Shown here piece by piece: positions 7,248 to 53,990 of a stretch of 64,000 bases of DNA. The position numbers and the translations under genes are program-made. The stretch is from Capitulum mitella. Lineage: Eukaryota > Arthropoda > Thecostraca > Pollicipedomorpha > Pollicipedidae. The stretch is from positions 10,189,501 to 10,253,500 of the forward strand of contig CP099848.1 of the NCBI GenBank assembly GCA_030062745.1, written 5' to 3'. The notes below the pieces were generated by a model. That model did no database searches. It was not told where the DNA came from and was given only the letters and a program-made list of their open reading frames with translations. Numbering within the stretch: position 1 is the stretch's first letter; every line of letters begins with the position of its first letter.

Positions 7248-10200
7248 GTGAGTCGGCGCGCCGCGTCTTTTGCTGGGGGGGGGGGGTGCAGGCGGGTGTG
7301 GGCTGGTTAATTCTGTTGTGATGACGGGGACTCGCGTCGTAGGCGTGCAGGATGGTGCGCCTGGTACAGCTCATACTGTGCTTGTTACGAGACCCACGGA
7401 GTGAGGGTTCAGCCAGTGTTTCGGGCGGATTTTTTTGTGGCGAACCCATGCTTTGTTTCCCTGCCAAGGCCACCCGATGGTTGCCAGTTGATCCGATCTG
7501 CGGACGCCTCACCTCCGCGGAGTTCAGCTCCGATCCCATGCAGGGCCTCTGCAGCGTGTCCCCCCCCCCCTGTTGTCGGGATGTGTGGCTGTGCCGGGTC
7601 GGCCGGCAGCCGCTCGCCGCCGCCGCCTGGCTGCCGGCCCGCTCTGGCCAGCCGGTCGGCTCCGTATGAATGTTGCATGAGGTGGCCTGAGCGCCGGTCG
7701 GCCCGCCCCGGTGCCGCCGGCTATTTCCGCGCCGACCCGTGACGTCAGCGCGGGGGCGGGGCGTCCGGCAGGCCGCCAATCGGGGACGTCGGTGCGTGGC
7801 CGCTACTGCGCGCGGTCCCGGACTGGGCGGTGGGTTGTTGTTGAGTCCTGTCAGATTGCGGAGGGATTGGTGGCGGTTTCCGCACTGTTGTCACTGAAAA
7901 CCGGTATGCATGCGAAGCATTGCTCTTTTGTGGTCTAAAAAATTCTGGCAACTGACAGTGGAATGCCGCATTCAAAGTTACTACATCATTAAGTGGTTAC
8001 CCTGCGGCGGTTCATGTAGAAGACTGATCTTGGAAACGACTTCGACGTCCATTTTTATGCATGTCATAGATTGAGAGTATATCGAAATGCGTAATGAACT
8101 GAAAGGTGTATCTACTTACAGTCGTTTGTGATTCTTGCTCGGTTTTGCTTAGTGGCTGGCAGTCTTTGTCCGGATGTTTCCAATGAGCTTGCCTTCGTCG
8201 GACCACGTATCTGCGGCCCCTGTGATCACTGTTGCGCCCCGAGTGAAGGGCGCGCCGGCCGGTGGCCGCGGGGCGGAGTGAACGACAGAGCAAGTCGGCC
8301 GGGCGACGGATCGCCCAGGTGTGGGCCGTGAGGGCTGCCGGGGCTTGACGCGGGCCTGTGGATAAAGTGCCGCAGTCCCCACTGCCTGTCGTTTGTGTAG
8401 CCCCTTTGGTGGCGCCTCGGACGGTTTCAGTCGGAGCTGGACGGTCTGCTGGAGGTGAACAGGCTGTGTGTGGAGCTCTGCTGATGATTGTGTCGTTTCA
8501 GTCGGAGCTGGATCGTCTGGTTGAAGCCGGTCTGATTGACGGGAATTCGGTGGGCGGCTGTCTGCAGCAGATCTCCGATATGATGGGCCTGGCCCGCGGC
8601 GGAACGGGCTCCGGACAAGGTCAGCGTGGCCTCCCTCCTCTACGGTGACCGCGTGCCGGCTCTTCATGTCTCCGCCTTCTCATACTCGCATTTTCCATTT
8701 GCGTTCAGGTATCCTGGGCGGAGTGTCACTTGCTTTGGTCGTCCGTGAGCTCAGTCGTTGCAGCCGACATTGCTGCCAGGATTTTCGTTGTTTCCCGTTC
8801 ATGGGCCACTGATTTATAAACTGGTTTGGTTGGATTCAGACGCTTAGTAATCTCGCGATTTATGTCTGTTGGGAGGATCGAATTACCGTCGTGCTAGCGA
8901 AGTCTTCTGCCTTGAATCCTGCCCGGATAGACTGTGAACGTCGTAACTGAGTTTGCCGGTCGTTATAATTTCCTTTGAGGCAGTTTAATCACCGCTTTGT
9001 CAGGCCCTGACCTCGCCGGCTTGTACGTAACCATATGACCTTGCGTAACGTGAGGGTGACATCGCTTGACCCGTGCGACCCGTGTGACCGGCAGCCATGC
9101 AGTGTGTGCAGCCAATCGCCGATCTTCGCGGCGCCGAGGCGTCCCAGTTTTCCAAGACGGAGAAGATGCTGCGCTGCAAGCTGGCCTCGCTGTGCCGCGT
9201 GCTCGACATGAAGGGCTGGGCGCACGGCGTCAGCAATCACATCACGGTTAGTGGTTCTCGGCTGGCGGCGCCTCGCCGGGCTGACGCCGCGTCGGTCGGC
9301 TTCAGAGCGTTTTTGTTTGAAGTTGTCGCAGTGACTTGCCTTTCAGTACTGTGAGCGGGCGTATTGAGACCTGTTGATTGGCCGGAATGTTCGTCTGACT
9401 GTGTGCGGCGGACAAAGTGGCTGCCACGCTGTCACTGCGTGCTTTCTGCCTGCGTGCCGGACCTTTCGGCGCTGTTGACGTGCGTCTCGAGGCGGCGGCC
9501 GGGCGCCGACCGTCCTCTGACCGCCCGCCGGGCCGGCGCCGCAGGTCCGCCTCAGCCAGGACCTGGAGCACTTCCTGGTGAACCCGTTCGGCCTGCTGTA
9601 CGGCGAGGTCACCGCCTCGGCGCTGCTGAAGGCCGACATGCAGGGCAACGTGGTGCACGCCGGCTCGACTGGGCTGGGCCTGGGCGGCGGGTTCGCGCGG
9701 CACGCGGCCGTGCACGCGGCCCGGCCGGACGTGCGCTGCGTGCTGCACGCCCGGCAGCCGGCCGTGGTGGCCGTGTCGGCTCTGCGGGCCGGCCTGCTGC
9801 CGCTGACGGAGGACGCGGCCGCTCTCGGCCCGGTCGCCACGCACCAGCCGCGCGGCGACGGCGACCAGGAGCTGGAGCGGCTCACCCGCGACCTGGGCGT
9901 CAACAGCAAGGTGCTGCTGCTGCAGAACGCCGGCGCCCTCTGCTGCGGCGAGACGATCGAGGAGGCCTTCTTCCTGCTGTCGCGCCTCGTGGCCGCCTGC
10001 GAGAACCAGGTGAGGCGCCGGGGATGGTGTGCTGTGTTTCAGTAGCGCGAGGTGTAAACGAGCGGTATTGTGGCGTGTGTTACTCGTGGTAACGGGTCGC
10101 GGAACGCATGAACGTCATCGTCCTCATTCAGCGGTGGTGTTCAGGCGTGGAATTCAAGCAACGCAGACGTGAATAATTCCCACGATCGACGCGAAACTGC

Positions 10201-16200: not shown

Positions 16201-18813
16201 ACAGGGTCGCTGGGCACCGCCGGCCGTGACCTGTGGCCCCTGAGCCGCGGCCGGCCGTGACCTGTGACCCCTGAGCCGCAGCCGGCCGTGACCTGTGACC
16301 CCTGAGCCGCGGCCGGCCGTGACCTGTGACCACTAAGCCGCGGCCGGCCGTGACCTGTGACCCTGAGCCGCAGCCGGCCGTGACCTGTGACCGCTAAGCC
16401 GCGGCCGCCGTGACCTGTGACCCCTGAGCCGCGGCCGCCGTGACCTGTGACCCCTGAGCCGCAGCCGGCCGTGACCTGTGACCCGTGAGCCGCAGCCGGC
16501 CGTGACCTGTGACCGCTAAGCCGCGACCGGCCGTGACCTGTGACTGCTAAGCCGCGGCCGCCGTGACCTGTGACCCCTGAGCCGCGGCCGCCGTGACCTG
16601 TGGCCCCTGAGCCGCGGCCGGCCGTGACCTGTGACCTGGTTCCGCAGTGCCGCCGCCGCGGGCGCCGCGCGTGGACCGCGTGACGGCCGCGCGCGCGCCG
16701 CGTCCCGCCCAGGCCGTCACCGTCACCCTGTCGCCGGCCGGTAAACGAGTTCGAGTGTCGGCGGTGTGAAGCCGGCCGCCGACCGGAGTCGGCCCGGCCG
16801 CCGGAGCCGGGGGGAGTCCCCGCTATCTGACCCTTGACAGCGGGGTCACTGGACCCTTTAGTACCCACGGGGCCTCGGAGGGCTGCTCCGATACTTGATC
16901 TTTGATACCGCTGCCTTCGCTTAAGGGGCGTTGCCCCTATTTAAGCGTCGTCCAAGCGTAATTGGGATGTGGTGGAGTTTCTGGTTAGAGTTTGCGTTTT
17001 TCCGAGATCTTTGCCGGACGACTCTGTTGCTGCGATCCGCAAAAATGAGGCAACGCAGCTCTGTTACCGGTGTGAGATCTTCCTCAACATTGCGTGGTTA
17101 GGCCCGCAGTCTGCATGGCCGTACATCTAACATATGCACCGTGGTTTGCCTTAACGTTTCCGGCGCACGTTGTACGTCGTTTTCCACTAACGCGGCGCAC
17201 GCTGCCAACGGTCGCCGCTGGAGCGGGCGGTTTCTGCGGCCGTTTCAACTCGCCGCGTGGTCGCGCGGCGTCCGGCGCAGTCAAATCACGCCGCTGCAGC
17301 CCGTGCTCGTCCGTGCCTGTCCGGTGCTGTCTTCCGCCTGTGCGCGCGTGTCCGAGTCGGCCTGTCCGAGTCGGCCCCGCCGGCGGGCCGGCCGTCTGAA
17401 TACAGTCTGGACCGTTCTGCCTGCGCTGTGTCCGTTCGCGTGGCGCCGCCGTGGGCGCAGTATCTCGAGTCAGCCGGCCGCCTGGCCGCGCGTGGTGGGG
17501 CCAGCCGCCGCCTGGGGTGGGGCCCGCAGCCGGGCGGGACCAGCGTGTGAGTAGCACCGCCTGGTGTGGTGTGTGTGCTCTGCTGCGGCCGGCGGCGGAG
17601 GTGTTGGTGCTCGGTGCCGTCGGGCCGGGCGGAGGTGGCGCTGGTGACGGGATGGCCGTGATATTGCCGCCGATACTACTCCGGGGCTGGCGAGAGGGGC
17701 TCCGGATGCTCAGCTGATTCGGTAACGAGGCCCTCGGCCTCGGAGTGTCTGCTTTGCAGGAGGCGGCTCCAGGGGCAGCTGCTGCACGCTTCCGCTCTCA
17801 CGTGTGTTGTCTTCCTCACGTGTGTGCACTGTGTGCGAATGGCTTTGTTTTTTGTTTCTGATTGAGTTTTCTGACCTGATTTCGTCGTTCCGTGCGTGGC
17901 TTTGATTTACTGATGCATGGTTTGTACTCGGTTTGCCGATTTTAAACAGCAGCTTATGTTCCTCTTTACGGCGTGTTCGCTGCTGTGTACTCACGGCCGG
18001 CGGATCCTGTGGGGCAGTCGGACCGTCTCCCAGTTCGGGGCAGTGCTCCGCTGTCGTCTGCCGCCTGACACCGCAGTACCGCTGTACCGCAATACCGCAG
18101 TACCGCTGTACCACGACTGAAGGCCAGAGCGGCAGCACGCCGCCCCATCGGCCGCCGTCATGCCGCGTGGCCGTGACCGTGTGACCGTGTGACCGTGATC
18201 GTGGCCGCCGTGTGTCCGCCAGGGGAGGTGACGACCAACGGTGAGGAGGTGGACGCCGGGCACCTGTCGGCGGTGTCGCACACAGACCAGGAGGTACGGC
18301 GCCAGCGGCCGGGAGGGGCGGGCCTCGGGGAGTCCAGTAGCGCAGACTGAGGTCTGTTTTGGGCAGCGAGCAGAATGCCGCGTGGGGAATTAAGTAATCC
18401 CCCGCGTCGTCGGGTTTTCGTGCGACGGATGAATGTCATCTAGCCATAGGAGCGTCCGCCGCCTATCGAATAAACGCCACACACCGACTCTTTGACATGC
18501 TGTGTGCGTGTGTGTGAGAACGACTTCATACTGATAACAGGGAGAAATGAACTAGAGCTCAGCGTGTTCAACAGAAGAAACAATTTCTTCTTGTCCATAG
18601 ATGTATCAAATCGCGTTATACTTGTTGAGAATGTGCTTCGATGTCTGCTTGACAAGCCTCCAACGTCTTGTTTTCAACGTGCAGGATATTTCTACCAGCG
18701 AAGCTTCAAAGAAGGAAAAGAAAAAGAGGAAGGGGTTGAAAACCCCGAGCTTCCTCAAGAAGAAAAAGGACAAAAAGAAAGAAAAGAAGGAAGCGTTAGA
18801 AGAGTCTAAATAG
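7077..18813 (+). CDS. hts: adducin (hu-li tai shao orthologue), 13 coding exons, 769 aa
   Basis: Adducin caps actin filaments and recruits spectrin to them at the membrane skeleton. Thirteen exons with GT-AG borders join in frame to 2,310 nt. Residues 1-97 are the N-terminal lead. Residues 98-330 are the class II aldolase-like head (DLRG, EKMLRCKLASLCRVLDMKGW, HFLVNPFGLLYGEVTAS, AARPDVRCVLHA, EEAFFLLSRLVAACE). Residues 331-485 are the neck (LGELEFEALMRQMDHAGYRTG, RTRWLNSPNVY, FVPKNTDPKE). The tail includes NPFDQVTDEDLEEYKRLVDN (about 560-580) and a Pro/Ala-rich stretch. Residues 735-769 form the MARCKS-related basic domain around KTPSFLKKKK, the known PKC/calmodulin site of the family. The aldolase zinc-ligand pair reads HAR, so no enzyme activity is expected. 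ATG 7077 opens the frame; it has G at +4. Introns hold minisatellites and no other gene. Confidence 0.95.
8424..8454 (+). other. duplicated acceptor / candidate 24-nt microexon in hts intron 1
   Basis: The sequence gtttcag|TCGGAGCTGG is identical to the exon 2 acceptor 71 bp downstream. It is followed by codons for SELDGLLE and then gtgaac at 8,455. The 24-nt segment is in phase and free of stops, so it could be spliced in as a microexon. It could equally be an inert local duplication, and the donor is weak. Confidence 0.4.
8502..8619 (+). CDS. hts: hts coding exon 2
   Basis: The acceptor is gtttcag|TCG and the donor is CAAG|GTCAGC, leaving phase 1. It encodes residues 58-96, SELDRLVEAGLIDGN through the LQQISDMM helix that precedes the adducin head. 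A near-copy of its acceptor and first codons lies 71 bp upstream (8,424-8,454). Confidence 0.88.
9095..9246 (+). CDS. hts: hts coding exon 3
   Basis: The acceptor is accggcag|CC and the donor is ATCACG|GTTAGT, phase 1 in and phase 0 out. It encodes residues 97-147: PIADLRG, then EKMLRCKLASLCRVLDMKGW and GVSNHIT, the first conserved block of the head domain. Confidence 0.93.
9545..10009 (+). CDS. hts: hts coding exon 4 (core of head domain)
   Basis: The acceptor is ccgcag|GTC and the donor is AACCAG|GTGAGG, phase 0 at both ends. The 155 codons give residues 148-302, the main part of the class II aldolase-like fold: HFLVNPFGLLYGEVTAS, the RPDVRCVLHARQP strand, SKVLLLQNAG and EEAFFLLSRLVAACENQ. 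Codons are almost all GC-ending. Confidence 0.96.
10328..10635 (+). CDS. hts: hts coding exon 5
   Basis: The acceptor is ccgccag|GTG and the donor is TACAG|GTGGGT, phase 0 in and 2 out. It encodes residues 303-404: end of head, an Ala/Asp-rich linker near 331-343, then LGELEFEALMRQMDHAGYRT and SDVEYPPAASSYTFD at the start of the neck. Confidence 0.94.
10969..11095 (+). CDS. hts: hts coding exon 6
   Basis: The acceptor is ctccacag|C and the donor is ACCAAG|GTATCG, phase 2 in and 0 out. It encodes residues 405-447, including GERTRWLNSPNVYQKVEV of the neck. Reading through the donor adds eight codons (VSVVKFDQ) and then a TGA at 11,120-11,122. Confidence 0.93.
12027..12140 (+). CDS. hts: hts coding exon 7
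   Basis: The acceptor is gtgttctag|TGG and the donor is AAGCAG|GTAGGT, phase 0 at both ends. It encodes residues 448-485, including the conserved neck motif LQFVPKNTDPKEF. The intron after it contains a degenerate GGTCA minisatellite (12,846-13,178). Confidence 0.93.
12846..13178 (+). repeat. degenerate about 20-bp minisatellite in hts intron 7
   Basis: Repeated variants of gggtcagctcaggtcatca and aggtcagcagggtcagat fill this part of the intron, ending about 40 bp before the exon 8 acceptor. Unit length drifts around 20-21 bp. Confidence 0.75.
13221..13343 (+). CDS. hts: hts coding exon 8
   Basis: The acceptor is ggtgcgcag|ATC and the donor is GACCAG|GTCAGC, phase 0 at both ends. It encodes residues 486-526, beginning IKENRRAGGISAGPQSHIL, which matches the conserved start of the adducin tail. 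Confidence 0.92.
13755..13920 (+). CDS. hts: hts coding exon 9
   Basis: The acceptor is gcctgcag|GTG and the donor is GAGCG|GTGAGA, phase 0 in and 1 out. It encodes residues 527-581: ASKGIIQRNYQHNAAVY and NPFDQVTDEDLEEYKRLVDN, both recognisable adducin tail motifs. Confidence 0.94.
14600..14872 (+). CDS. hts: hts coding exon 10 (Pro/Ala-rich tail)
   Basis: The acceptor is gttttcag|CC, phase 1. It encodes residues 582-672: VELTSDGEEVDVSHSSAPGD followed by a Pro/Ala-rich disordered stretch. The donor GTACGT at 14,873 keeps phase 1 into the next exon. Ignoring it gives two more codons and then TAG at 14,878-14,880, so a short product without the basic C-terminus is possible. Confidence 0.82.
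16205..16647 (+). repeat. 30-31-bp minisatellite abutting hts exon 11 acceptor
   Basis: About 14 copies of a unit reading ccggccgtgacctgtgaccc then ctgagccgcgg. The last copy merges into the real acceptor (gtgacctggttccgcag). Several units read ccgcag instead of ccgcgg, so each carries its own potential AG acceptor. Confidence 0.88.
16648..16740 (+). CDS. hts: hts coding exon 11
   Basis: The acceptor is ttccgcag|TG and the donor is GGCCG|GTAAAC, phase 1 at both ends. It encodes residues 673-703, a Pro/Arg-rich stretch (PPPRAPRVDRVTAARAPRPA). Support is frame continuity and the total length; the sequence itself is not conserved. A 30-31-bp minisatellite runs right up to the acceptor. Confidence 0.78.
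18060..18112 (+). repeat. short GCAGTACCGCTGTACC repeat
   Basis: Alternating copies of gcagtaccgctgtacc and gcaatacc in hts intron 11. A second small array, gtgaccgtgt repeated at 18,174-18,205, lies just before the exon 12 acceptor. Confidence 0.6.
18223..18293 (+). CDS. hts: hts coding exon 12
   Basis: The acceptor is tccgccag|GG and the donor is CAGGAG|GTACGG, phase 1 in and 0 out. It encodes residues 704-727, GEVTTNGEEVDAGHLSAVSH plus four more. It resembles the start of exon 10 (TSDGEEVDVSH), suggesting an internal duplication of this acidic motif. Confidence 0.82.
18685..18813 (+). CDS. hts: hts coding exon 13, MARCKS-related C-terminus
   Basis: The acceptor is acgtgcag|GAT. The 42 codons and TAG encode residues 728-769, a lysine-rich block centred on KGLKTPSFLKKKKDKKK. 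This is the diagnostic MARCKS-related domain of full-length adducins, needed for spectrin-actin binding and regulated by PKC and calmodulin in studied members. It uses A-rich codons, unlike the GC-rich upstream exons. Confidence 0.96.
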   Translation, partial: DISTSEASKKEKKKRKGLKTPSFLKKKKDKKKEKKEALEESK

Positions 18814-19789
18814 GGGGCTGCAAAAATCATTAAGGTATGAACTAGTCCTCAGCGTAGGTGCATCCAAGGGGAATCAGACCATTGCCGTAGAGCTTCAGTC
18901 GGAAAGAACTTTCTTGCTGTAATCTGTGAGTGAGTTAACCAATGCATGTGGCGTGTTATTATGAAAAGCTACTGTTTTATATCTTTCACCAAAGCTATGC
19001 TTCGACACCCACAATTTCGTGTCCGAGCTAAGGCACATAGGAGCCCGATGCCCACCGCCTGATGGTCTGACCGGGGTCGGTTCCCAATCTGTTGTGTAGT
19101 GAGACAAGGGTCTTTAATTGTCGTATTTCCCCAATCATTTTCCTAACTTCCCTGTAGGCCAAAAGTATTCCCTCGCATCCGAGGTTTTTTGACAATGTTC
19201 GGTTTTATTTTAACGTGAAACCATGCAGTGATTGTAATATTCATGTCATGGGCGTGGAAAGAACTATGCACCGTAGTCTGTGCAACAGATTACCATAACG
19301 GTGTAGTGTTTGGTGTCCGTTGGATTCCTGGCGTCCGACCCAATTTTATGTCACGCCAGCTGTGCTGTCTGAGATCAGTTATTAGTGTTTCCTGGTTACG
19401 TTTATCGTATGATAACATTTCGTCCCGCCCGTTTCCCACGTCTTTCTAGCCAGCTTCTCCCGGAATCGGAGACTGGATCATATATATATATATGTGCGCC
19501 AAAATGCCCCGAAAGTGAGTTTTCCTATCTTGCAGAGCACTGCCCGTCAAGGCTTTTTCACTGTGAGCCAAACCTGACCTGAAGAAGACTGGTGGCGCTC
19601 GTCCGAAGCGAATGCTTGACATCTAGCGACAGTAGCGACGTGGTGTGATACTAACGTTTGGAGGCTTTCCGCGAGGTGGTCGTGTCTCCCAGGCGTTATG
19701 ACCGTGGCCAGGGGTTGACGGGCCCCCGGTGCGCGGGTGACCAGGCTTGCGTTTGCCCTTCAGCGTGCTGTCAGGTTTGCTATCCTGCT
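18814..19789 (+). other. hts 3' UTR / intergenic stretch
   Basis: Moderately AT-rich DNA with no domain-bearing frame and no AATAAA. A short (TA)n lies near 19,480. It is probably 3' UTR of hts, by position only. Confidence 0.4.
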
Positions 19790-20261
19790 GTTTTCTCGGC
19801 GTGCAGGGCGCACTCACAGGCTCGAGATAACCGTGATACGGAGCGGCGTGGTCGGCGGACGTCGACGCGGAAAGGTGATGAACCTCTGGCGTGTGCGCTC
19901 CGCTCGGTGGTGTCTGCTGTCGCCGCCGCGCTCTTAATGTCCGGCTCAGCGCCAGCCGCGCCCCTGGTGTCGCCGCGATGAGGCGCGAGTGGCCGCGTGT
20001 TCCGTGTGTCGGCGCTGGTGAGCGCTGCGGTGCGTTCCGTGGTCGGGCGACGTGCTTCCAGAATTATCCGAACAGCTTCGAGTTGTGCGCGGCGCAGTGG
20101 CCGGCGGCGCGCGACATGCTGTTCCGAAGCGAGCCGGCGCGAAAAATGGCAGCTATGGTGGAACGCTTTATCCGGGAGGGGGTGTTTTTGAGCCACGGTG
20201 TGGGGCCCAGCCTCTTTTGTATACAGACCGTTGTTTTATCTGCGAGCGGTGCGCAATGTGG

Positions 20262-20267
20262 AATAAA
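20262..20267 (+). promoter_or_regulatory. candidate poly(A) signal downstream of hts
   Basis: This is the first AATAAA I find after the hts stop codon, followed by a GT-rich stretch (ggcagtgtgtcacg). It would give a 3' UTR of about 1.45 kb ending inside the left palindrome arm. A second AATAAA lies at 21,123-21,128. No transcript evidence is available. Confidence 0.35.
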
Positions 20268-21136
20268 GTTTTATTGCTATGGCAGTGTGTCACGCCTTTT
20301 GCGACCTTTTACGACGTTTTAACGCTCCAGGCAGGATCGGTGTAAGCTTCTAAGGGACAGGGAAGAAATAGATCGGTGCCGGCCCAGGTTTTCGGCTGGC
20401 GGCAGAGCTCCCTTACGTTCCACGTAGTCTACCCCAAAGGTTGATTTTATGCCGGATTTCGGCCACCGTATTTACGGGTTTAAGCGAAACAAAATAACAG
20501 GCAGAAATGTCGCGTACTGCATGATAAATGTCTCCCGGAATTGAAGGGCAGGGTACTCTTCTGCTGTAGATGATATGGTGGTCGCAAGCAACTCCCCGCG
20601 TCAAGCATATTCGCAAGTGGTTCCCCAAAAACATGTTCTTGCAAAATTGTTATTTTGTCATGGTTTTTTCACCGTTATTGCAAAGATTCCTTCAAATCGT
20701 GAACCGTATTGGACAAGTTATGACGGGTCTTCTGTGTAACGCAGATGGCCTTACTCTTTTCGACCAGAACTGCAATTATGACAATTGCAACTTTTCCTGA
20801 AGAGAAACCCATGTAGGATTTGCGTAAGTTCCCTTCGGCGTAGTAGAGGCGGACGTGGGGTACCAGATTACCTTCGGTACACCTTGGTATCGCCGGGGAG
20901 CTGTCATTGTCATTGCCCCTACAATGAAGGTTTCTGGGCTTCAGACCTCAGAAACGTCACGGAAATGAACGCAGATAAGGCCTGTTCTTTCATATCAGTT
21001 TGATCTTTTGTCACGGCGAAACATTATCAGTCGTGTCTGTGACCAGAATCGGGCTCTGGACCTAAGAGCTTCGATTTAGTGCTACTTGCCCATTTGTATG
21101 GTTGTTTTTTGCAATATATGTGAATAAAAGGATCGT

Positions 21137-21360
21137 TTAACCCTACTGCCGTTTGGGGGTGGGGTGGGGGCTTCAGAAACCCTCCCACTCCACTTTCTTG
21201 CTCGCCATGTCCAGGATTTTTTTTTTAACAGCTTCATAAAGATGTTAATTTTCCTGCCTATTCATCCTACGCATTATGCCCAATTTCCGTCGTTTTATTT
21301 CGCTCAGGAGAGAAACCAGGCCATGTTTTTGGAAGGCACCTCATACCATTTTGGGAAATG
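21137..21360 (+). mobile_element. piggyBac-like element end in left arm
   Basis: TTAA followed by CCCTACTGCCGTTTGG and a G-rich stretch. The next 200 bp resemble the right end of the 22.3-23.5 kb MITE (gaggtgcctcccaaaaacg, then cctggctc, in reverse). Its partner end appears truncated near 21,600. The mirror copy ends at TTAA 26,649-26,652. Confidence 0.6.
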
Positions 21361-22250
21361 TTAAAGGTAAAAGAAGAATGGCTACGAAAAATACCTTTTT
21401 AAGATAGAACTTGTGAGCAGGGGCAAGGGAACTCCTCTTCAGTTGTGGGGGGAGGGGGGTCAGAGAAGCATTTTGGGTCAATTCTTTCCGGTCAACGCCC
21501 ATAGGGTCAATGTTAAGTCTCAAAAAAGTTGAGGGGCTGACGCCCCCTTGGCCCCAAGGCTCCTGCCCCTATGATTGTGAGCGTTTTGTTGAGTACCTAA
21601 CTGAGCATACGTAAAAAAAATTGTTGATCACGGGTTCCAGCCAGCATTTGGCCGGGCTGAGCCCACTTTTTACTTGGACAACATGGGCAAATGCGTTCTG
21701 CTTGGGCATGCCCGAGAACTCAAGTGCACACTTCGAGTTCATGCTTGGGCAAACCGGCGCTGGGCTACAATTTTTGCCCAAGTTATGCCTGCATGGGTTA
21801 ACCCAAGTTCTGCTATGGCATGACTGAGTGCAGTATCTACTTGGGCTGAACCGAGGGCTTCTCCGTTTTGCCTGAAGATGGGACAGTCTCGTTGTCGAAA
21901 TTAGTCTGCCAGCATACCCACCCGAGCCTCGCGTGACGCATTAATGGTCGGCGTTGATAAATTCCGATAGGCCATCAGCATCGGATAGGGTCATATGTGT
22001 GCTGCACCTATGGGCTGCGTTGCTCTTCACTGCATCCAACTATCTGTCCATTTTGAGCATTTTGGAGAAAGTCACTCTTTTTTCCGTTTATCATAAGTCA
22101 CCAAGTATGGACGATACACTCATTAACTGCTGAAACTGGTAAATAGATACATCAAGCAATCAAGCCGAGATTATGGTGAGATGGCCCATGAATGCATTGT
22201 TTTTTATTTATGCATGACGATTGGGGGAAACTCTTGGAACTTGTTATGCT

Positions 22251-23478
22251 TTAACCCTATTCCCGGAGGGCTAGACGGTATGGCCGATTCCCGGCAGGGA
22301 GGGGCGGATTCGGCCCCCCCCCCCTGAGATCTCGAGAACTACTTATCCGATTTCATCGCAACAAACGGCAATCGATTTGCCGTGACGTGAACTACATTTT
22401 GATAAAAAGAAAGTTTCAAAATTTTGAAATTTGTGGATACAGGGGGGCAAAAATGTCAAAATGGGGGGTACTTTTTGACTTCTTATAACTCCGTTGTTTA
22501 TGGACCGATTTCGATGAAACTGGCATCAATCGAGAGATTATGGATAGGGCTTTTACCATAGGTATGAAAATTTGAAATTTTGAGAAAATTCATGGGCGTT
22601 CACAGGGTTTCAAAAATAGGGAGATTAGTTTTCCAATAACGGAATGAACAAAAGAGGCCAAAACACTTTTTTAGCTTCTGCTAGTCATGTTATGCTAAAG
22701 AAGTACAAATCGCATTACAATGTTTGTATAATGTTAGCATAGGCGGTGCCAGGGACATAAAAAAGGGGGAACTGTCATGGTCACACGTTTCTCAGATCAA
22801 CTTGTGACCTTTGACCTTAAATGACCTCCAGTGACCTTGGGGTCACTTGGAATGATGTCGTGTGCATTCAATATTATCTGTAAACGTTTTTAATCGATTA
22901 AATTCACTCTATTCCAAAAAATTCATTTTTTGGCTTTTGCGATATAGGGTACGTGCACTGACATTTTAGGTCATAGCTCCGTGACCTGACCTGATATCAA
23001 GCTGAAACTTGGTACACAAGTAGAGGGCATCTTTCTACGTCATATATATTCCGGGTTTGGCATTTGAAAAAAACGGCGCCGAAATTATAGCGAAAAAAAC
23101 AAATTTTGACTTTTGACCTTGACCTGACCTTGTAAAGTGACCTTAGATAAACAAAATTACATATGCACATTGCCCAACTATTTAGCTATATATTCATATA
23201 AAGTTTTAAGTTCTATCTTAAAAACTCTGTTTTTGGCAGACATTTTCCTTTTACCCTCAACATGGCCAAAAATGACCTGAGGTGCCTCCCAAAAACGTTG
23301 CCTGGCTCCGCCCCTGAGCAAAATAGAATTTCGAAATTTTGTCACGGCGCGTAGAAGGAATAGCTAGGAAAAGTCACCAAGTTTCGTGAAGCTGCGTCAA
23401 AAAGCCTGGAATTGGCAAGCAAAAAATCCGAGGGGGGGCGGATTCCGCCCCCCCCCCCCCTGCCGGGAATAGGGTTAA
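22251..23478. mobile_element. non-autonomous piggyBac-like element (MITE), 1,220 bp
   Basis: TTAA flanks both ends (22,251-22,254 and 23,475-23,478). The terminal inverted repeats begin CCCTATTCCCGG, and the ATTCCCGG part is repeated just inside the left end. The right palindrome arm has an intact tgctTTAAatcg at the matching position, which is the pre-insertion site. There is no transposase. TTAA target duplication and CCC-starting ends are the hallmark of the piggyBac superfamily. The interior is AT-rich with repeated tgacct motifs and a C-tract at each end. Confidence 0.88.
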
Positions 23479-23866
23479 ATCGTTGACAATGCTAAAGAAC
23501 GAACAACGCAGTCGGAAAAAAATATGATGCAATACATAAGAACGAGAGAGCGAAATCACAACTGATGTTATAGACACACGTAACATGGTAGACCTTTGTC
23601 AGTTGGCTGCATTTTTTGGTGGCGCTAATGCTTAATGTAAGAAGTGGATAGATGGCGGCCCCTTCGACGATGATCACATCAAGTTACAAATAAAATTCAT
23701 AGATGGTGCTAGTCTTGAGCCAGCCGTTCACAATAGAAGCTTGGAGCTGCCGATAACGAAGTCGAGTTCTTCATTGTAGGCAAACCGGGAGTGCTCCTAC
23801 GAGCTTCCAATCTTTTTGGACGGCGCAGTATAAGAATAGAGGCATGCTGATTACACAACGAGATGT

Positions 23867-24262
23867 ATGGCCGGAGTCACGAAGCAGCTTTCAGGACCTC
23901 ATGGGATCTGCACGGTACGATACAACAGTTTAAGACATCTGAAGTCGGTCCAGCGTTCCCGCGAGGACATGAAAACGGGCGCAACGACGGCTGCGGCCGT
24001 GCATGCTCCAGGTGGTCACAGCTCTGATCGGCTCGCCACCCTCCGGTCACGTCTCGACGCGCCCCGACCGTTTCCTGGCTGGCCGACGGGGTGGCCAACC
24101 GGCGACCGCGTGCGACTGATACTGCCGTCGCCCCCTCAGAGAAAGCCCAAGGTTCCTAGGGAGTTCAGTCGGCCGTCGTGCGCCCCTCAGATCTGGATCT
24201 GTTCACCGCACCTTTGTATATACAACGTAACACATCGGCATTTGTCGGCACTGCTCCATTAG
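23867..24262 (+). other. 131-codon open frame in left arm, unrecognised
   Basis: The frame begins MAGVTKQLSGPHGICTVRY and ends HRHLSALLH. The same length and stop position are preserved in the right arm. It has no domain I know. It includes a Pro/Arg-rich middle and KPKVPREFSRPSC. Conservation may simply reflect recent duplication. Confidence 0.25.
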
Positions 24263-24365
24263 CTTGGAATGGTGCAAACAAGTTCAACGTTGAATTACTT
24301 TGCCCACGTGTATGTGGGACAAATTGGTAAAGACAGCACTTTCTTTTGTTTGCTGGACTTCCCAA

Positions 24366-24648
24366 CGGTCTCTCTCTCTCAAGCGCGGGTACGCGCTTGA
24401 GAGTGATTTAAATGTCAGTACACTTTTCTCCTTTCAACGACTTTCTCGCCTCCCCCCCCCCCTGGCGCGGGCTACGTTCGGCCGACTCCCCCAATCGAGC
24501 ACGACCCGCGTCCCGCCAGGAGCGACCACCCCCCACATAACACCGTCAGAGGTGCCAACCACGGAGGAAGATGGAAACTAGCTCACACGATGGCAATTTT
24601 CCACGCTATTGCAGATTGGCAACACCAATTTGCTCATAATCAAGACCT
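24366..24648. other. palindrome spacer with central hairpin
   Basis: About 283 bp of non-duplicated sequence separates the arms. It contains a perfect 12-bp inverted repeat, CTCTCAAGCGCG, at 24,376-24,387 paired with 24,392-24,403 across the loop GGTA, followed by a C-tract near 24,450. Confidence 0.8.
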
Positions 24649-24752
24649 TTGGGAAGTGTAGCAAACAACAGAAAGTGCTATCTTTACCAATTTGTGCTTC
24701 ACAACACGTGAGCAAAGTAATTCAACGTTGAACTTGTTTGCACCATTCCAAG

Positions 24753-25148
24753 CTAATGGAGCAGTGCCGACAAATGCCAATGTGTTACGTTGTAGATACC
24801 GGGCTGCGGTGAACAGATCCAGATCTGAAGGGCGCACGACGGCCGACTGAACTCCCTAGGAACCTTGGGCTTTCTCTGAGGGGGCGACGGCAGTATCAGT
24901 CGCGCGCGGTCGGCGGTTGGCCACCCCGTCGGCCAGCCAGGAAACGGCCGGGGCGCGTCGAGACGTGACCGGAGGGTGGCGAGCCGATCAGAGCTGTGAC
25001 CACCTGGAGCATGCGCTGCCGCCGCTGTCGTTGCGCCCGTTCTCACGTCCTCGCGGGAACGCTGGACCGACTTCAGACGTCTTAAACTGTTATATCGCAG
25101 TGTGCAGATTCCATGAGGTCCTGAAAGTTGCTTCGTGACTCCGGCCAT
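24753..25148 (-). other. 131-codon open frame in right arm, mirror of the left-arm frame
   Basis: About 119 of 131 residues are identical to the left-arm frame, with the same start and stop. An overlapping frame in this arm reads FVGTAPLAWNGANKFNVE, faintly like the C-terminal tail of LINE reverse transcriptases, so the region may be eroded retroelement sequence. Confidence 0.25.
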
Positions 25149-26429
25149 ACTTCTCGTTGTGTAATCAGCATGCCTCTATTCTTATACTGCGCCGTCCAGA
25201 AAGATTGGAGGTTCGTAGGAGGAGCACTCTCGGTTTGCCTACAATGAAGAACTCGACTTCGTTATCGGCAGCTCCAAGTTTCTATTGTGAACGGCTGGCT
25301 CAAGACTAGCACCATCTATGAATTTCATTTGTAACTTGATGTGACCATCGTCGAAGGGGCGGCCATCTATCCACTTCCTACATTAAGCATAAGCGCCACC
25401 AAAAAATGCAGCCAACTGACAAAGATCTACCATGTTACGTGTGTCTATAACATCAGTTGTGATTTCGCTCTCTCGTTCTTATGTATTGCATCATATTTTT
25501 TTCCGACTGCGTTGTTCGTTCTTTAGCATTGTCAACGATTTAAAGCATAGCAAGTTCCAAGAGTTTCCCCCAATCGTCATGCATAAATAAAAAACAATGC
25601 ATTCATGGGCCATCTCACCATAATCTCGGCTTGATTTCTTGATGTATCTATTTACCAGTTTCAGCAGGTAATGAAAGTGTGTCGTCCATACTTGGTGACT
25701 TATGATAGACGGAAAAAAGAGTGACTTTTTTCCAAAATGCTCAAAATGGACAGATAGTCGGGTGCAGTGAAGTGCAACGCAGCCAATAGGTGCAGCACAC
25801 ATATGACCCTTCCGATGCTGATGGCCTATCGGAATTTATCAACGCCGACCATTAATGCGTCACGCGAGGCTCGGGTGGGTATGCTGGCATACTAATTTCG
25901 ACAACGAGACTGTCCCATCTTCAGGCAAAACGGAGAAGCCCTCGGTTCAGCCCAAGTAAATACTGCACTCAGTCATGCCATAGCAGAACTTGGGTTAACC
26001 CATGCAGGCATAACTTGGGCAAAAATTGTAGCCCAGCGCCGGTTTGCCCAAGCATGAACTCGAAGTGTGCACTTGAGTTCTCGGGCATGCCCAAGCAGAA
26101 CGCATTTGCCCATGTTGTCCAAGTAAAAAGTGGGCTCAGCCCGGCCAAATGCTGGCTGGAACCCCTGATCAACAATTTTTTTTTTTACATATTCTCAGTT
26201 AGGTATTTAACGAAACACTCACAATCATAGGGGCAGGAGCCTTGGGGCCAGGGGGGCGTCAGCCCCTCAACATTTTGAGACTTAACATTGACCCTATGGG
26301 CGTTGACCGGAAAGAATTCACCCAAAATGCCTCTTTGCCCCCCCCCCCAAATGAAGAGGAGTTCCCGTGCCACGGCTCACAAGTTCTGTCTTAAAAAGTA
26401 TTTTTGGCAGCCATGCTTCTTTTACCTTC

Positions 26430-26652
26430 AAAATTGCCAAAAATGGTATGAGGTGCCTTCCAAAAACATGGCCTGGCTTCTCTCCTCAGCAAAATAAAAT
26501 GACGAAAATTGGGTATACTGCAAAGGAAGAATAGGCAGGAAAATTAACATCTTCATCAAGCTGTTTCAAAAATCCTGGAAATGGCGAGCACGAAAGTGGA
26601 GGGGGAAGTTTTGTACAGCCCCCACCCCACCTCCAAACGGCAGTAGGGTTAA
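26430..26652 (-). mobile_element. piggyBac-like element end in right arm
   Basis: Mirror of the left-arm copy, ending CGGCAGTAGGG then TTAA. The flanking sequence (gatccttttattcac) is also mirrored, so the element end was present before the palindrome formed, or was copied with it. Confidence 0.6.
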
Positions 26653-26660
26653 GCGATCCT

Positions 26661-26666
26661 TTTATT
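26661..26666 (-). promoter_or_regulatory. candidate poly(A) signal facing mthl
   Basis: AATAAA on the - strand, the mirror of AATAAA at 21,123-21,128 in the left arm. It lies about 1.24 kb beyond the receptor's stop codon. Inferred from position only. Confidence 0.25.
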
Positions 26667-27574
26667 CACATATATTGCAAAAACAACCATACAAGTGGGC
26701 AAGTAGCACTAAATCGAAGCTCTTAGGTCCCCAGCCCGATTCTGGTCACAGACACGACTGATAATGTTGCGCCGTGACAAAAGATCAAACTGATATGAAA
26801 GAACAGGCCTAATCTGCGTTCATTTCCGTGACGTTTCTGTGGTCTGAAGCCCAGAAACCTTCATTGTGATGGGCGTCGGAGAACAGCTCACATCTCTCGT
26901 CCTGATACGGAAGTCACTGGCACCAAATCGTACTGCTCTTTAATCATCCGACGTGTAAAGACAAACAGGCGTTAAAACGCCGTAAAACGTCGCAAAAGGC
27001 GTAACACGCTGTCATAGCAATAAAACTATTTCACGATGAATGCCGTTCGCAAATAAAACGACGGACTATATACAAAAGAGGCTGGGCCCCACACCGTGGC
27101 TCAAAAACACCCCCTCCAGGACAACGCGTCCCAAATAGTGTTCGCGCTGGCTCGCTTCGAAACAGCACGTCGTGCATCGTCGGCCACTGCGCCGCGCACA
27201 ACTCGAAGCTGTTCGGATAACTCTGGAAACACGTCGCCCGACCACGGAACGCACCGCAGCGCTCACCAGCGCCGGCACACGGAACACACGGACACTCGCA
27301 CCTCATTGTGGCGACACCAGGGGCGCGGCTGGCGCTGGGCCGGACATTAAGAGCGCGGCGGCGACAGCAGACACCACCGAGCGGAGCGCACAGGCCAGAG
27401 GTTCATCACCTTTCCGCGCCAACGTCCGCCGACCACGCCGCTCCGTATCACGGTTATCTCGAGCCTGTGAGTTCGCCCTGCACGCCGAGGAAAAAGGCCA
27501 ATGACAAAGTTCGACATTTGCGCCCCGGAGACAGTCTTGGTTACGTGCCTGGCTCGCGACATCTATGGTTCAGC

Positions 27575-27855
27575 GATCGGCTGCTCCGTGAGAGGTATAA
27601 CCCACCACAGGAGAGGCAGGCTGCCGCCTCACTGTCCTGCAGCTTCACGGTTGAGCCGGCTGTGGTCCACCCATAAGCTGTTCCGCGACAGGAACATCCT
27701 CTCCTCCTACAGGAGCAGCAGACTGACGCCTCACTGTCGTTACGCTTCCCGAGTGGGCCGGTGTAGCTCGGCGTCAGGCTGCTCCGTGACAGGTGCACCC
27801 AGTTCCTCCAGGAAAGGTGGACTGACGCCTCGTCATCCACCCGCTTCACGGCAGC
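27575..27855 (-). repeat. about 100-bp imperfect tandem repeat in the receptor's 3' region
   Basis: Three diverged copies, each beginning gctgctccgtgacaggt or a variant and ending near cttcacggttgagccgg. They lie 50-330 nt past the stop codon, so probably within the 3' UTR. Confidence 0.55.
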
Positions 27856-27903
27856 GTCGCGACATCAAACAGCCACCCGCAGCTCGGCCGGCGGCCGGCC
27901 CCT

Positions 27904-39656
<11,753 letters not shown>

Positions 39657-39982: not shown

Positions 39983-40384
39983 CGGAGCGGGGAGGCGCCG
40001 CGGTGCGGTCCGCGCCGGGCCGGACTGTGCTGGAAGCTGCGGAGAGTGCGCGGCAGAGGGCCGCCGGGCTCTGTCGGCGGTGATCTCCGGGGAAGCACCG
40101 AGCCGCCCGGCTCCCGATTCCTCCGCTGCTCTACCTTGGGAACGCACACCGCACTATTTCAACCGCTCCGTGGAAACTGAGTGCGTCCGTAGAACCGGGA
40201 GGAGGCAGACCGGCTACGAGGAGTCTCTGGCTTTCCAACGCCGCGGCTGTGGCCTGTTCGGACAACTGGGAGAACGACGGACGTCCGGCGCACCGCTGGT
40301 GGATCGTGGTCTAGACAGGAAAGTAGCCAAGGGGGGGGGGGCATGGGGGCCATGGCCCCCTGAGCCAAGCGGTCTACACTAGAT

Positions 40385-40590
40385 ATATAACGATTTCGCT
40401 CGAATACGGAATAGTGATCATGCGTATGTTGCAACAACAAACATTACACGTATTTCTGGGGGTTAAATATGAGGTGAAATGCGTAAAATTACTGTTTTTT
40501 CCTATCAACTTCGTGATATGGTAGCGGTATATGACAAAATTTGGTATTTGCCCCCCCCTCGCGGGAAGTTCCGGTTACGTGCCTGGGTCT
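40385..40590 (+). repeat. interspersed repeat R2 copy
   Basis: Shares gaatagtgatcat, aacattacacgtatttctgg, atgacaaaattt and the end motif of a C-tract plus gttacgtgcctg with 51,592-51,795. It is probably a short non-autonomous element. Confidence 0.65.
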
Positions 40591-41902: not shown

Positions 41903-43898
41903 TACAGTTTAGTACTACGTGCTACTTACACGATGCTAAATACCGCATTATTATCAGTAACAGTCCGTACTCAGGCCCATTCTGGCGAACTACATCGACG
42001 AGGCGCAGATTCGCGCTAAAGAAACCAGTTATTTTGGTGGGGCTCGCGGTCCACCAAAACGCAAAACGGTGCCCCTGGATACACTGGAAAAAATTACACC
42101 CCTAATGCCGGAAATTTCAGTACAAAAATACCGCCTTTATAAAGCGCCAAGTGAGTACCATGACATTACGGGTGTCGTTTTAGTCGCTTGGCTAGGCGTC
42201 AAAAAGTGTCGTTCAACCTTGATGGCTCCATTAACGCCCTTTAACCCCGCAGTGGAAAAGGGGGTTTCGCACTAACGCGCACTGGAAGGGGGCACCAAAG
42301 TGCTCCCCTTCGATCTCGGCAACGGAAAGAGCTAGAGACATGAAATTTTATGGACAGGGTGGGGCTATAACGATTTATATTGTGTGCAGTTTTCATGACC
42401 CTAGGGTAACATCTTCAAGGTCAAAAGGGGTCGAAAATGTCAATTTTGGGCACTTTCTCGATCTGCACAGGCCATTCCGTACGACTTTTCGAACGAAACG
42501 GGAAAAGGGTGTTTGTTTGGGCGTTAAAATGTGGAATACGACAATTTCCATTCACGTGACGTCTTCACTGAGAATTTCGGGCCGAGGTCATGTCAAGCCA
42601 TTGACCTATGCCGTCATTTTTTCATCTTTTCCAGATCAGATTTCGAGCAACACGGAGCAGCTTGAATGTAAATAAGGGCCCTACACGCATCTTTTGGCGT
42701 ACTTTCAGTGAAGGAAGCCAACATCAGTACATCTGATCACTTCTAGCGTTTATATTTATGTATGTATGTATGTACTGAAGACGTCCACGCCGTGGCTATT
42801 CTGCCCTCTCGTTAAAATTACAAAAACGATGATACACAACCACTTGTCAGGCGAAGTAAAACGCACTTATTTGAAAACGAACGTCAGTCACTGTGTCAGA
42901 TGTTCCAAATGTTTTAAAAACGATGCTCGTGAGGCGGTGTTCGAGACTGCCGGGAGGCAGACGGTTCCAATCCACTGCGGCTCGGTAGGAGAAGAGCCGC
43001 TGGGTCGCCGCCAGCCGCACGCGAGGCAAATGTATGGCACCTGTGCCAATAGCAACCGCACGGGTGCGGCGGCAGCAGACCTGGGCACGCGTAGGGAACA
43101 GAGCACATAATGGCGGACGGGCATGTGGGGGAGCGCAAACCTTTGTAGACCTTCAGGAAGTCACGCGTTCTGACCAGGTCCTCCACCCGACTCCACCCCA
43201 AGGCTTCCAGAGACGGGGTAATGTGGTCCCCGCTTCGCGCCCCGCTCACCAACCTCGCAGCAAAGTTAATTAGCTTTTGCACTCTGCTCAGTTGGCAACC
43301 GGCGGCTCCTCCCCACGCAGTGATACAGTTAAGGATGTGAGGGAAGACGTGGGAGTGAACGAGGAGCTTCATGACGTCTGGAGTGAAGTAGAAACGAATT
43401 TTGAATAGTGAGACAATGATGCTATTACAACGCCGAACAATGGTGGATATGTGCTCTCACCAAGTAAGACGTCGGTCGATGATTACACCAAGTACCTTCA
43501 TAGACTTTTTTGGAATCATGACGGAACCCGAAATGACGATGTGAAAATTTTTGGTCTTTTTTATGGAGGCTCTGGTGCCAATGAGCATGAAGTCCGTTTT
43601 TCCTGAGTTTATTTTTACACTGTTGGACCGAAACCAGTTTTGAAGGCCCGAGATGGAATCCTCGATTCGGGTCTTGAGACATGATAGATTGTGGGTGTCG
43701 GGTGCAGCGTGGTCGAGAAGCTGGGTGTCATCGGCATAGGAAAGGAGTCGGCCATAAGGAAGGAAATTGAATAGGTCGTTCATAAAGATTAGAAATAGGA
43801 TTGGGCCAACGATGGAACCCTGGGCCACGCCATGGGACAAGGGTAAGGTAGCCGAGCCACCAGCGACCACCTGCCTCCGGCCACTCAGGTAACTGGCC

Positions 43899-44000
43899 AA
43901 CCAGTCCGACTCAACACCATACCACTCGAGCTTGTTCAGAAGGGCGGGCGAACCAGTCCGACTCAACACCGTACCACTCGAGCTTGTTCAGAAGGGCGCC
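43899..44000 (-). repeat. 52-bp tandem duplication inside LINE A
   Basis: The stretch aaccagtccgactcaacacc to cttgttcagaagggcg occurs twice (starts 43,899 and 43,951). The length is not a multiple of three, so the RT frame is broken. Confidence 0.9.
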
Positions 44001-45720: not shown

Positions 45721-48700
45721 TTTTGTTACATCCATCACTTATGTCTGAATGACGTCGCGTGATTGTGTTCAAATGGTAATCTTAGGTGGAATGCTGGTCC
45801 TTTCAGAAAGTTCATATTTGTCAGATACAACCGTCGTTTTTGTTATGTTCGTCTGACTTCAAATGCTTGAAACTTGAAAAATTTCTGGTCGATGTTTAAT
45901 TTTTCTGCGCCAATCGACGAATTATTCAATTGCCATAAATGTCACAAAGTAGCAGCAACCAGCTCTGATCCGTTCTCGAGATATTCAAGAAAAACAGCTG
46001 AGGAGGCATAAAAATACCCCCCTTCCAGTGCTCGTGTTTAAGGACGTAAGGCAACCAAAATGGCTTATTTGAGCAACATTATGAGTGTCATTCAGCACCC
46101 ATTCCAACACCTGTTATGATTCTCATGGTATACGCTTTTGGCTGAAAAAGTCCGAGCAGTACAAAAATCACACCCATTTCGGCTCAAAATCCGCATTACA
46201 CCCGTCGGTTCACCGGAGCCAAAAATTTGGCTCCTACATGGGTGTGCCATGACACCCATTTCAGACGTAGGGTGTAGTCTTGGGAAATTCATTATCTGAG
46301 CATTATCCGAATGGTTTCGAGCATGCAAACCATCTGAGTAAAATGCATTTTAACCAGCATCCAGGTATGGTCATGCGATCAGAGTACATGTCCGGCAGTC
46401 CAAATTGTTGCTCATACCCAGAATCAGCCAAACAGTAAAACAATTCCAATTCAACAGATAATCCTGCACCCGACCTTTTCGCCCACATGCATAACCACGA
46501 AAGGATTTTTGATTCTTACTGCTATGCGACACCGTCCCCCGATTTCAAGTTAACCCTCCTCTGGCCAGCTGCCAGCTGCCCACCGTATAGTGGTCTGGCC
46601 GGACAGTCAGTTTCCATAGAACTCGAATCCATGTGCCACATAACCGAAATCCTCGATATTTTCCCCTTCAGCCACGGAACGGGTATGGTTGAGCCTGACC
46701 CGAATCTCAGTCTGATTCATGTCGTGAATCTGAGCCTGAGTAGACTCAGGCTCAGATTACGCAGCACTAGATCCCGTGCGATGTTTTTTAACTGGTGAGT
46801 CCGAGACGAGTTCAGCAACGCCTTAAGTCCGCACTGCGGGCACCACGCACACTAGATTCCAAGTCCGGTCGGGCTGAAACCTTTAGCGTGGTTAGGATAA
46901 CATGAGATTGTCATATGCATGGAGAAAGCCGCTGCAACGAGCACGCAGTGCAGAATGCCTTAGGAGCCTAGAATTATAACGTCCAAACCAACCTTCGAAG
47001 ACTGCTCACAGCCGACATAGAACGACCTCCCACAGATCATCTTCTTGAGTCCATTGCTAGACCCCAAATGTGTCGGGATCACGCTTCGAAAGGACACAAC
47101 AACATTATTTTGACGGACTTTATTAAAACATATGTCGACGTCAGTTCAAGGAATGGCTATATCACAAATACGTTCCACTGCCGAATCACATTCGTGCTTC
47201 CGAAATGTTTCATATGTTGAAATAGTACCACGTGAATAATTAACTAGCACGGATTAGTTAAGGTCAGATTTACGGTTCCAGTGCCCGCCGGAATGCGCTT
47301 TCACAGCGAGTGCGGAAACGGTGTCAACTGGCGCCTTCGTGGACCGCAGCGCAATGCGTCGCGGACCCAACGCCGCTTCCTACTTCAGCTTCGGCACGAA
47401 GGAAAGGGGTTTTCCGGCGCGTGTATGCCATCCCGGGTTTTCAGAACACAGCGCTGCAGGAACGCCTCCATTGCCCGGTACCTCGTTGAGAACGTATAGT
47501 TAAACACTGAATGGGCGAGCACGAAGCCGACCATCGCCATCTCAAAATTGCTCAAACGTATTAGCGGGCGCCGGAGCTGGAGCAGCTCGCGCCGTCTGCC
47601 GCCGCGGCAGTGGTACCGGCGCACTGCACAAGGCTGCAGAAGGACCCCAACGCATGGAGCGCTCGACTCGCACGATCACCGTCTTGCCGAATAGGCGTCA
47701 TCTTGGACCAGACGTCGCCCTGCCGGGAAATCGGCCCTGCCTCGACAAAAGACCCGCTGATTCGACGGGTTCCGAATGTGGGAAAATGTTAGGGCCCATG
47801 GGGTGTAACGAAATATTTATGTAAATAGATAAAAAAGAACATACATATGTAACAAAATATTTGCGATGTCAGATAGGCAGTTATATAGCCTCAGTATGTG
47901 ATAGGGATGTGTACACAGAGGTGGAGAATGTCGGCAAAAAAAAAACATTCAACAAAATCTTTACAATCAGACAGTCAAAACCCCAGTCAGTATATGGGTT
48001 TCTACCGACATACCTCTGTAAGGTCTCGGCCGCCAGGCTGATGAGACTGATGTGTTCACAGCCTGCTGTCGTCGCCGACCAGTTCGCAAATCGAAAGACG
48101 GTTCGCTGGGCACAGTCTGGTGTCACTGCTCAAGAGCTCGCAACTCAAAAAATGATTCGCTGGGGCTAACGTTATGTTATCGGTGCCATTGGTCCCACTT
48201 AGTGACGAAATTGAGCTGGAGTAAAAACGATAAATCTGTGCTGGCAGCACGGTGCTGGAGTAATGGGAAATACCGGAAAAAATTGATCGTCGTAGGTCAA
48301 CGAAGGCGATTTGGGAAAAACGAATGATACGTGACGATTAAGGCCAGTGTCCTCTTTGATTGCACATACACAACTAAAATTCGAGATCTGACTAGACACA
48401 CTCCCTTTAAAAAGAAGGATATGTTAAAAACGATTCTCAGCAAACAAACAAATAACAACACATAAAAACACACAAACAATAAAGCACAGATCTAGTACTC
48501 CCCATCTAAGTCCACTGTAACTGGTATAAACGTAATCCATATGACTAAACGGTGACGTCCTCGAGATCAAAACAGTGCATACATTGAATCTCTGATCAAC
48601 TGTTCATATTCATGCACTTCAAAAGTAGCATAAAGTCAATGTTTACCAACATTCGTTGTTTGAGAACTATACAGAAACGTGAAACACTTCATGTGTGTAC

Positions 48701-49009: not shown

Positions 49010-49574
<565 letters not shown>

Positions 49575-53275: not shown

Positions 53276-53399
53276 GCGTGTTTTTGTACCATGTAACGGA
53301 AGACAGCCCACATTCAGCCCAGATTCGGCCCAGCCCAGATTCGGTAGGGAATTCCCTTTACGAGCCGATAACTCCCACAGAACTTGAGAAACCTGGCTT

Positions 53400-53990
53400 T
53401 GCCACACATCAAATGAAAGCACTCGTTAACCCAAACACAACTGTGCAAAGAAAAATCACCTGCCTTGTCTATGGGGAAAGTTATAGACGATCGAAAAAAT
53501 CATGTCAATGGGGCGGCCCCTGCGATTTTCTCCAAAATTGACACATGAAATCACCGACACAAGCCCATCATTCTGGCTGAAGAAACCCTATGGGCCATTG
53601 AAATCTAAGGGGTCAAAACCCCATAGGAAAATTAAAAACGGGTTTTACAGCTTAAATAACGCCACGCATAGGCCAAGTGCCACATCAAATGAAAGCACTC
53701 GTTAACCCAAACACAACTGTGCAAAGAAAACACACCTACCTTGTCTATGGGGAATGTTATAAACGATTGAAAAAATCATGGCTATGGGGCGGCCCCTGCG
53801 ACTTCCAAAACTGACATATTAAACCACCGACACAAGCCCATCAATCTGGCTGAAGAAACCCTATGGGCCATTGAAATCTAAGGGGTCAAAACCCCATAGG
53901 AAAATTAAAAACGGGTTTTACAGCTTAAATAACGCCACGCATAGGCCGAATGACACATCAAATAAAAGCACTCGTTAACCCAAATACGTA
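53400..53990 (+). repeat. subterminal tandem repeat, period about 275 bp
   Basis: Copies start at cacatcaaatgaaagcactc at 53,404, 53,682 and (partial) 53,955. Each contains gaagaaaccctatgggccat and aaaacgggttttacagctta. Confidence 0.85.

Follow-up and report, generated by a model that had tools for sequence, protein, structure and literature searches.

How does a long palindrome arise between two convergent genes, and what, if anything, does it do there? The question is raised by a 64,000-nucleotide stretch of the genome of the barnacle Capitulum mitella (GenBank assembly GCA_030062745.1, contig CP099848.1, positions 10,189,501 to 10,253,500; C10:10189501-10253500 in the contig numbering used below), which is the window referred to throughout; genome searches covered 477,042,490 bases in 16 contigs. 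The inverted repeat is confirmed in the window as three collinear inverted blocks with similarity far beyond chance (Table 1), and the stop codons of an adducin gene (+) and a Methuselah-like receptor gene (-) flank the arms, which bears out the original prediction of a palindrome between two convergent genes. The palindrome is real, and the explanation that we regard as probable is a fold-back inverted duplication of a flank together with the end of a transposon, centred within the transposon, that was altered by later drift and conversion and would now be a neutral scar.

The arms are more alike than the roughly 90% first proposed: 162 of 2,737 aligned ungapped columns are mismatched (97 transitions and 65 transversions), giving a difference of 5.9% and an identity of 94.1%, and the spacer between them measures 271 bp (24372-24642) instead of 283 bp. 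Identity varies from 89.5% to 99.2% between segments (divergence 0.8-10.5%). The difference in arm length reflects a 1,220-bp insert in the left arm (22251-23478) and a further 590 bp at 20326-20915, opposite which the right arm holds 101 unrelated bp (26868-26968).

Composition of the arms

What do the arms consist of? Each joins a flank found only at this locus to the left end of a dispersed transposon-like family, and when the family members are lined up by their ends, the left end has an abrupt start at 21637 (right-arm counterpart 26159), and the flanks are unrelated between copies. A genome search with the outermost flank (19790-20790) returned six matches, namely the query itself, the other arm (matched by the first 536 query bases) and four short ones of 40-104 bp. 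For a second query, 20916-21680, 40 matches were scored out of 2,853 candidates, and among these both arms were full-length; the other 38 consisted of one piece each of at most 274 query bases, and 37 of these lay around 21397-21584. As far as the searches reach, the flank unit is therefore private to this locus. The segment at 21397-21584 is itself a very abundant short repeat, as the 2,853 initial candidates of the query containing it indicate, and has a diverged relative at 38995-39114.

The inner half behaves differently in the same searches. The inner 897 bp found 56 matches in the genome, comprising the arms, three matches over the whole query at 88-89%, one over its bases 1-890 at 83% and partial ones, and a query with the transposon tip found 40. 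The genome-wide search for further copies proposed with the original prediction succeeded for the inner half, which is dispersed as a transposon end, and failed for the outer arm unit, which was found nowhere else in the searched genome. Comparison with 12 fetched sequence sets showed spacer sequence after the arm, in right-arm orientation, in 11 of them (in some, later inserts lie in between); the set from C10 was the one without a spacer match. Other members of the family extend beyond 24384, the point where the palindrome copy stops. Three family copies share a right end in which about 11 bases are complementary to the left tip, and a single copy measures about 13 kb from end to end, inserts included. 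On these sequence comparisons, the dispersed family is a roughly 13-kb transposon-like element with two different ends. When the rest of the transposon was sought elsewhere in the window, the sole further match to the family regions compared was at 40323-40589 (73%). A Helitron reading of the element end, suggested by a hairpin and a TC start, was dropped when the base before TC proved not to be constant.

Two further observations concern this family. At C1:13843096-13860881 a tail-to-tail pair of its members lies with the tips outward; the two are sisters in the tree (0.992) and their flanks are unduplicated. Another family copy contains a DDE_1 transposase fragment (-) in a stretch of about 3.5 kb that is shared at 92% with a copy on C7, and this DDE_1-bearing stretch sits at different places of the two family elements.

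A snap-back hairpin at the centre

The centre of the palindrome has two features expected of a fold-back, namely a single-copy 271-bp spacer that continues the transposon of one arm only and a templated snap-back of 12 bp at the junction (24376-24403). Reading the minus strand, the right arm passes into the spacer and then into CTCTCAAGCGCG TACC CGCG, where the sequence turns back; with eight more bases the 12-bp hairpin with the preceding sequence is complete, a GA run comes next, and the left arm starts at 24371. Outside (AT)n-type runs, another perfect short hairpin of 12 bp occurs at one place in the window (approximately 46727-46760). This junction would be explained by a fold-back on a 4-bp inverted match, then a brief stretch of templated copying, then a second switch. 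At the outer left junction a T run is common to both sides, which is compatible with a short-homology join.

These features suggest the following course of events. A transposon-like element of about 13 kb would have lain beside the 3' end of the receptor gene, and a DNA end broken or stalled about 1.8 kb inside it would have folded back at a short inverted match between two CGCG words. The folded end may then have copied eight more bases of its own strand before it slipped, through the GA run, to a point on the element about 270 bp farther back, from where copying would have continued outward through the element tip and the adjoining flank until a junction with the adducin side formed at a short T-rich match. 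The outcome would be an inverted duplication around a single-copy spacer with the right arm as the presumed source, after which drift and gene conversion between the arms would have followed and the TTAA-flanked insert would have entered the left arm.

Uneven divergence between the arms

The transposon ends in the two arms are each other's closest relatives, with 96.2% identity to each other vs at most 90.0% to ten others and a support of 1.000 in a tree of 12 sequences. Divergence between the arms is uneven. The cleanest block (21621-21985) contrasts with 49 mismatches in the 498 columns directly outside it, and in 5,000 permutations no window equalled the cleanest one observed. The difference between the zones inside and outside the transposon tip persists without CpG and homopolymer sites, which excludes such effects as its cause, and non-CpG divergence also varies within the zones, from 0.6 to 6.0% inside the tip and from 2.9 to 10.5% outside it. 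The pattern points to patchy gene conversion from arm to arm.

Origin of the palindrome

The origin of the locus is well supported, and it probably belongs to a known class, the fold-back inverted duplications. In the human cases (PMC3907307), all 21 sequenced junctions have a single-copy spacer, of 766-70,466 bp, and 13 of the 21 have inverted microhomology of 2-8 bp; yeast breaks (PMC11724301) yield short templated foldback inverted insertions, mostly of 5-34 bp. The human duplications and yeast foldback inversions (PMC7467729) have in common with the locus the inverted copies around a single-copy spacer, the short inverted matches at the spacer end and the repeats at some junctions. The known cases are large duplications of chromosome ends, whereas the barnacle locus is interstitial, with arms of about 3-4.6 kb that are old and diverged.

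Several observations weigh against a single fold-back. The 271-bp spacer falls below the human range of 766-70,466 bp (PMC3907307), the two-step template switch is read from a single junction, and both CGCG words are present in only one of the 12 other copies that could be lined up, so their presence in the source copy before the event is a supposition. The chief fact, however, is a step in divergence at the transposon tip: outside it 105 of 1,228 columns differ (8.55%), inside it 57 of 1,506 (3.78%; p 2e-7), and the nearest outside mismatch is 6 bp from the tip. A single event would be expected to leave equal divergence, which means that conversion between the arms must be added to the explanation. 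The step keeps alive an alternative hypothesis, that a palindrome of the flank came first and that a tip-to-tip dimer of the transposon left end was inserted later at its centre. Two ages would give just such a sharp drop at the tip, and the tail-to-tail pair on C1, with its unduplicated flanks, demonstrates that paired family members exist. This order of events would nevertheless require insertion at the exact centre; the flanks are inverted and not direct repeats up to the tip, and therefore no target-site duplication is seen; and the strong variation of divergence within each zone fits conversion. We consider it unlikely.

The remaining explanations are less probable still. The original prediction had left the choice between a foldback-type element and an inverted segmental duplication. 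The latter gains support from the flank beyond the transposon tip, which is found as a unit in the two arms only. The former is rejected: there is no target-site duplication at the arm ends, where the longest shared direct word is 6 bp and not at corresponding places, no further copy of the outer arm was found, and the dispersed element has different ends. A related proposal, an internally deleted copy of a transposon with long terminal inverted repeats or of a foldback transposon, was considered because of the C1 pair, which has the same orientation, and would account for two outward-facing family tips with the interior missing. It is disfavored since the flank beyond the tips is also duplicated, the arms reaching 1.3-1.8 kb beyond them into DNA that the searches recovered as a unit from no other place; moreover, only two close tip-outward pairs were seen by eye among the 40 tip-match rows, three copies have a different right end with an inverted match of only about 11 bp to the tip, and the arm ends carry no target-site duplication. 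We give it the slimmest chance of all. Hardly better placed is an erroneous inverted join, chimeric or haplotype-merged, made during assembly. Near-identical arms would be expected from a read that had turned back on itself; here the arms differ by 5.9% as a mosaic, one contains an insertion with an intact empty site opposite, and they lead into different genes. An assembly artefact is accordingly an unlikely source of the palindrome.

Table 1 Features of the palindrome and its neighbourhood (window coordinates).
Feature	Position	Strand	Remarks
Left arm	19788-24371	+	4,584 bp; putative copy; inner end truncated relative to the transposon family
Spacer	24372-24642	-	271 bp; from about 24384 continues the right arm's transposon copy
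Right arm	24643-27496	-	2,854 bp; putative source; adjoins receptor 3' end
Inverted block 1, outer	19788-20325 / 27496-26969		538 columns; 89.8% identity
Inverted block 2	20921-22254 / 26867-25540		1,340 columns; 93.6% identity; 2,005 bits
Inverted block 3, inner	23475-24371 / 25543-24643		902 columns; 94.7% identity; 1,403 bits
Flank outside transposon tip, left copy	19788-21636	+	20326-20915 without match in right arm
Flank outside transposon tip, right copy	26160-27496	-	26868-26968 without match in left arm
Transposon-like family, left end, left-arm copy	21637-24371	+	Split by 1.22-kb insert
Transposon-like family, left end, right arm and spacer	24384-26159	-	Without insert; ends where other members continue
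Low-divergence block	21621-21985		Arms mismatched at 3 of 365 columns; probable arm-to-arm gene conversion
Insert	22251-23478		1,220 bp between two TTAA; inverted CCCTATTCCCGG termini; left arm only
Snap-back hairpin	24376-24403		12-bp stem, 4-nt loop; putative fold-back point
Adducin C-terminal tail and stop codon	18742-18813	+	Stop 18811-18813
Methuselah-like receptor, last coding frame and stop codon	27904-28158	-	Stop 27904-27906

An insert in the left arm

The insert that splits the left arm has a TTAA target duplication, short terminal inverted repeats and dispersed copies, as expected of a non-autonomous piggyBac-like element; its TTAA and CCCT ends make it a putative member of that superfamily. 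Eight copies of at least 1,000 bp (84.7-95.4%) occur elsewhere in six of the 12 fetched sequence sets. Since the right arm holds a single TTAA at the same place, an empty site, the insert arrived after the duplication.

Flanking genes and poly(A) signals

Between the adducin stop codon and the left arm there are 974 bp, and between the right arm and the receptor stop codon 407 bp. The adducin gene is named from an Aldolase_II match at 9521-10042, and its C-terminal tail is presumably the lysine-rich, MARCKS-like end of an adducin; the receptor is named from a Methuselah_N match at 35284-36936. Where would transcripts of these genes end? The first AATAAA or ATTAAA downstream of adducin is at 20262, within the left arm, and those downstream of the receptor are at 26944 and then 26666, within the right arm, all before the centre. 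Neither motif occurs in 18814-19787 or 27497-27903, an absence that means little and is not significant because it concerns only about 1.4 kb of sequence. Both genes run into their own arm in the same sense, and therefore messenger RNAs ending there would share 3' sequence without pairing.

Coding, RNA and silencing potential

Could the arms encode a product? Between them, the inner open reading frame of 140 codons shows 9 synonymous vs 13 non-synonymous codon changes, and three outer frames on the plus strand show ratios of 4:14, 7:13 and 5:13, which would place the changes near neutral. Seven open reading frames of the arms have no Pfam match at E 0.1, hence no transposase match, and together with the near-neutral changes this led us to reject protein-coding arms. 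A structured RNA was likewise rejected: Rfam gave nothing at the gathering score in the window and nothing at E 1 in 19500-27800, and the folding of the most conserved block is unremarkable, as 9 and 10 of 100 shuffles fold at least as well (z -1.30 for either strand).

One hypothesis, close to the endo-siRNA source and possible transcriptional buffer of the original prediction, is that the palindrome is a functional hairpin-RNA locus, in which a transcript crossing the centre would form double-stranded RNA and give rise to small interfering RNAs (siRNAs) directed against the transposon family or the 3' sequence of the genes. The potential for a duplex is real, with 1,047 of 4,564 21-mers of the left arm having a perfect partner in the right arm and a longest mismatch-free run of 205 columns; the convergent genes are directed into the arms, the inner half matches a dispersed family, and the anatomy resembles that of Mu killer in maize (PMC3440606). 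However, canonical poly(A) signals stand in the arms before the centre, and only transcription past the centre would be expected to yield a hairpin, as messenger RNAs ending within the arms would not fold; with the same-sense entry of both genes, these signals would be one point against a simple read-through hairpin. The arms moreover differ by 5.9%, the 1.22-kb insert interrupts the left one, the most conserved block does not fold beyond shuffles, and the arms lack a transposase match. We regard such a function as improbable.

Mu killer (PMC3440606) has two inverted copies of one transposon end beside a flanking gene, as here, and a read-through hairpin has been proposed for it, although the effective antisense transcripts are reported there not to come from flanking-gene read-through. 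Mu killer also contains sequence of a transposase gene and acts as a silencer in vivo (PMC3440606), whereas the barnacle arms have no transposase match and include a duplicated private flank as well. An animal counterpart, by analogy, would be a chance fold-back whose hairpin siRNAs, produced by gene read-through, silence the approximately 13-kb family and, by way of the outer arms, also act back on the similar 3' sequence of both genes; we hold this more elaborate version to be more doubtful still. The Drosophila hairpin-RNA loci (PMC10317233, PMC10292708) are, like the barnacle locus, inverted repeats that could fold as RNA. Mosaic identity suggestive of exchange between arms is shared with sex-chromosome palindromes that undergo gene conversion, but those keep above 99% identity (PMC3723533, PMC8981503), whereas the barnacle arms are decaying. 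Among the papers listed in a literature search on inverted duplications, palindromes, endo-siRNA and hairpin RNA, none concerned a barnacle genome, which is not proof of absence.

Other repeats

The size of the palindrome alone is not exceptional, as further inverted pairs reaching at least 500 bp and 85% are present in a 303-kb sample made up of the window and the fetched loci, a sample biased to this transposon family. Two inverted repeats lie in C7:15490001-15505000, one of 573 bp at 90% (317-bp gap) and one of 547 bp at 96% (1,658-bp gap). The window itself contains an inverted pair of 399 bp at 94% (53288-53686 and 56659-57057) beside a 273-bp tandem duplication (53404-53984), RVT_1 reverse transcriptase fragments at 43460-43987 (-) and 59628-60347 (-), and, at 28196-28382, 37589-37717 and 49021-49569, long pure GA/AG tracts and a 549-bp AGAGAC array.

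Significance of the locus

The palindrome is most likely neutral, an ordinary decaying scar with an instructive anatomy. At this one locus the order of events can be read, with a transposon in, then a fold-back, conversion and a second transposon in, and with a template-switch scar at the centre. Should RNA crossing the centre or small RNAs derived from the arms be found, the locus would make it possible to test in animals whether inverted duplications of transposon ends that arose by accident turn into silencing loci, the course proposed for Mu killer in maize.

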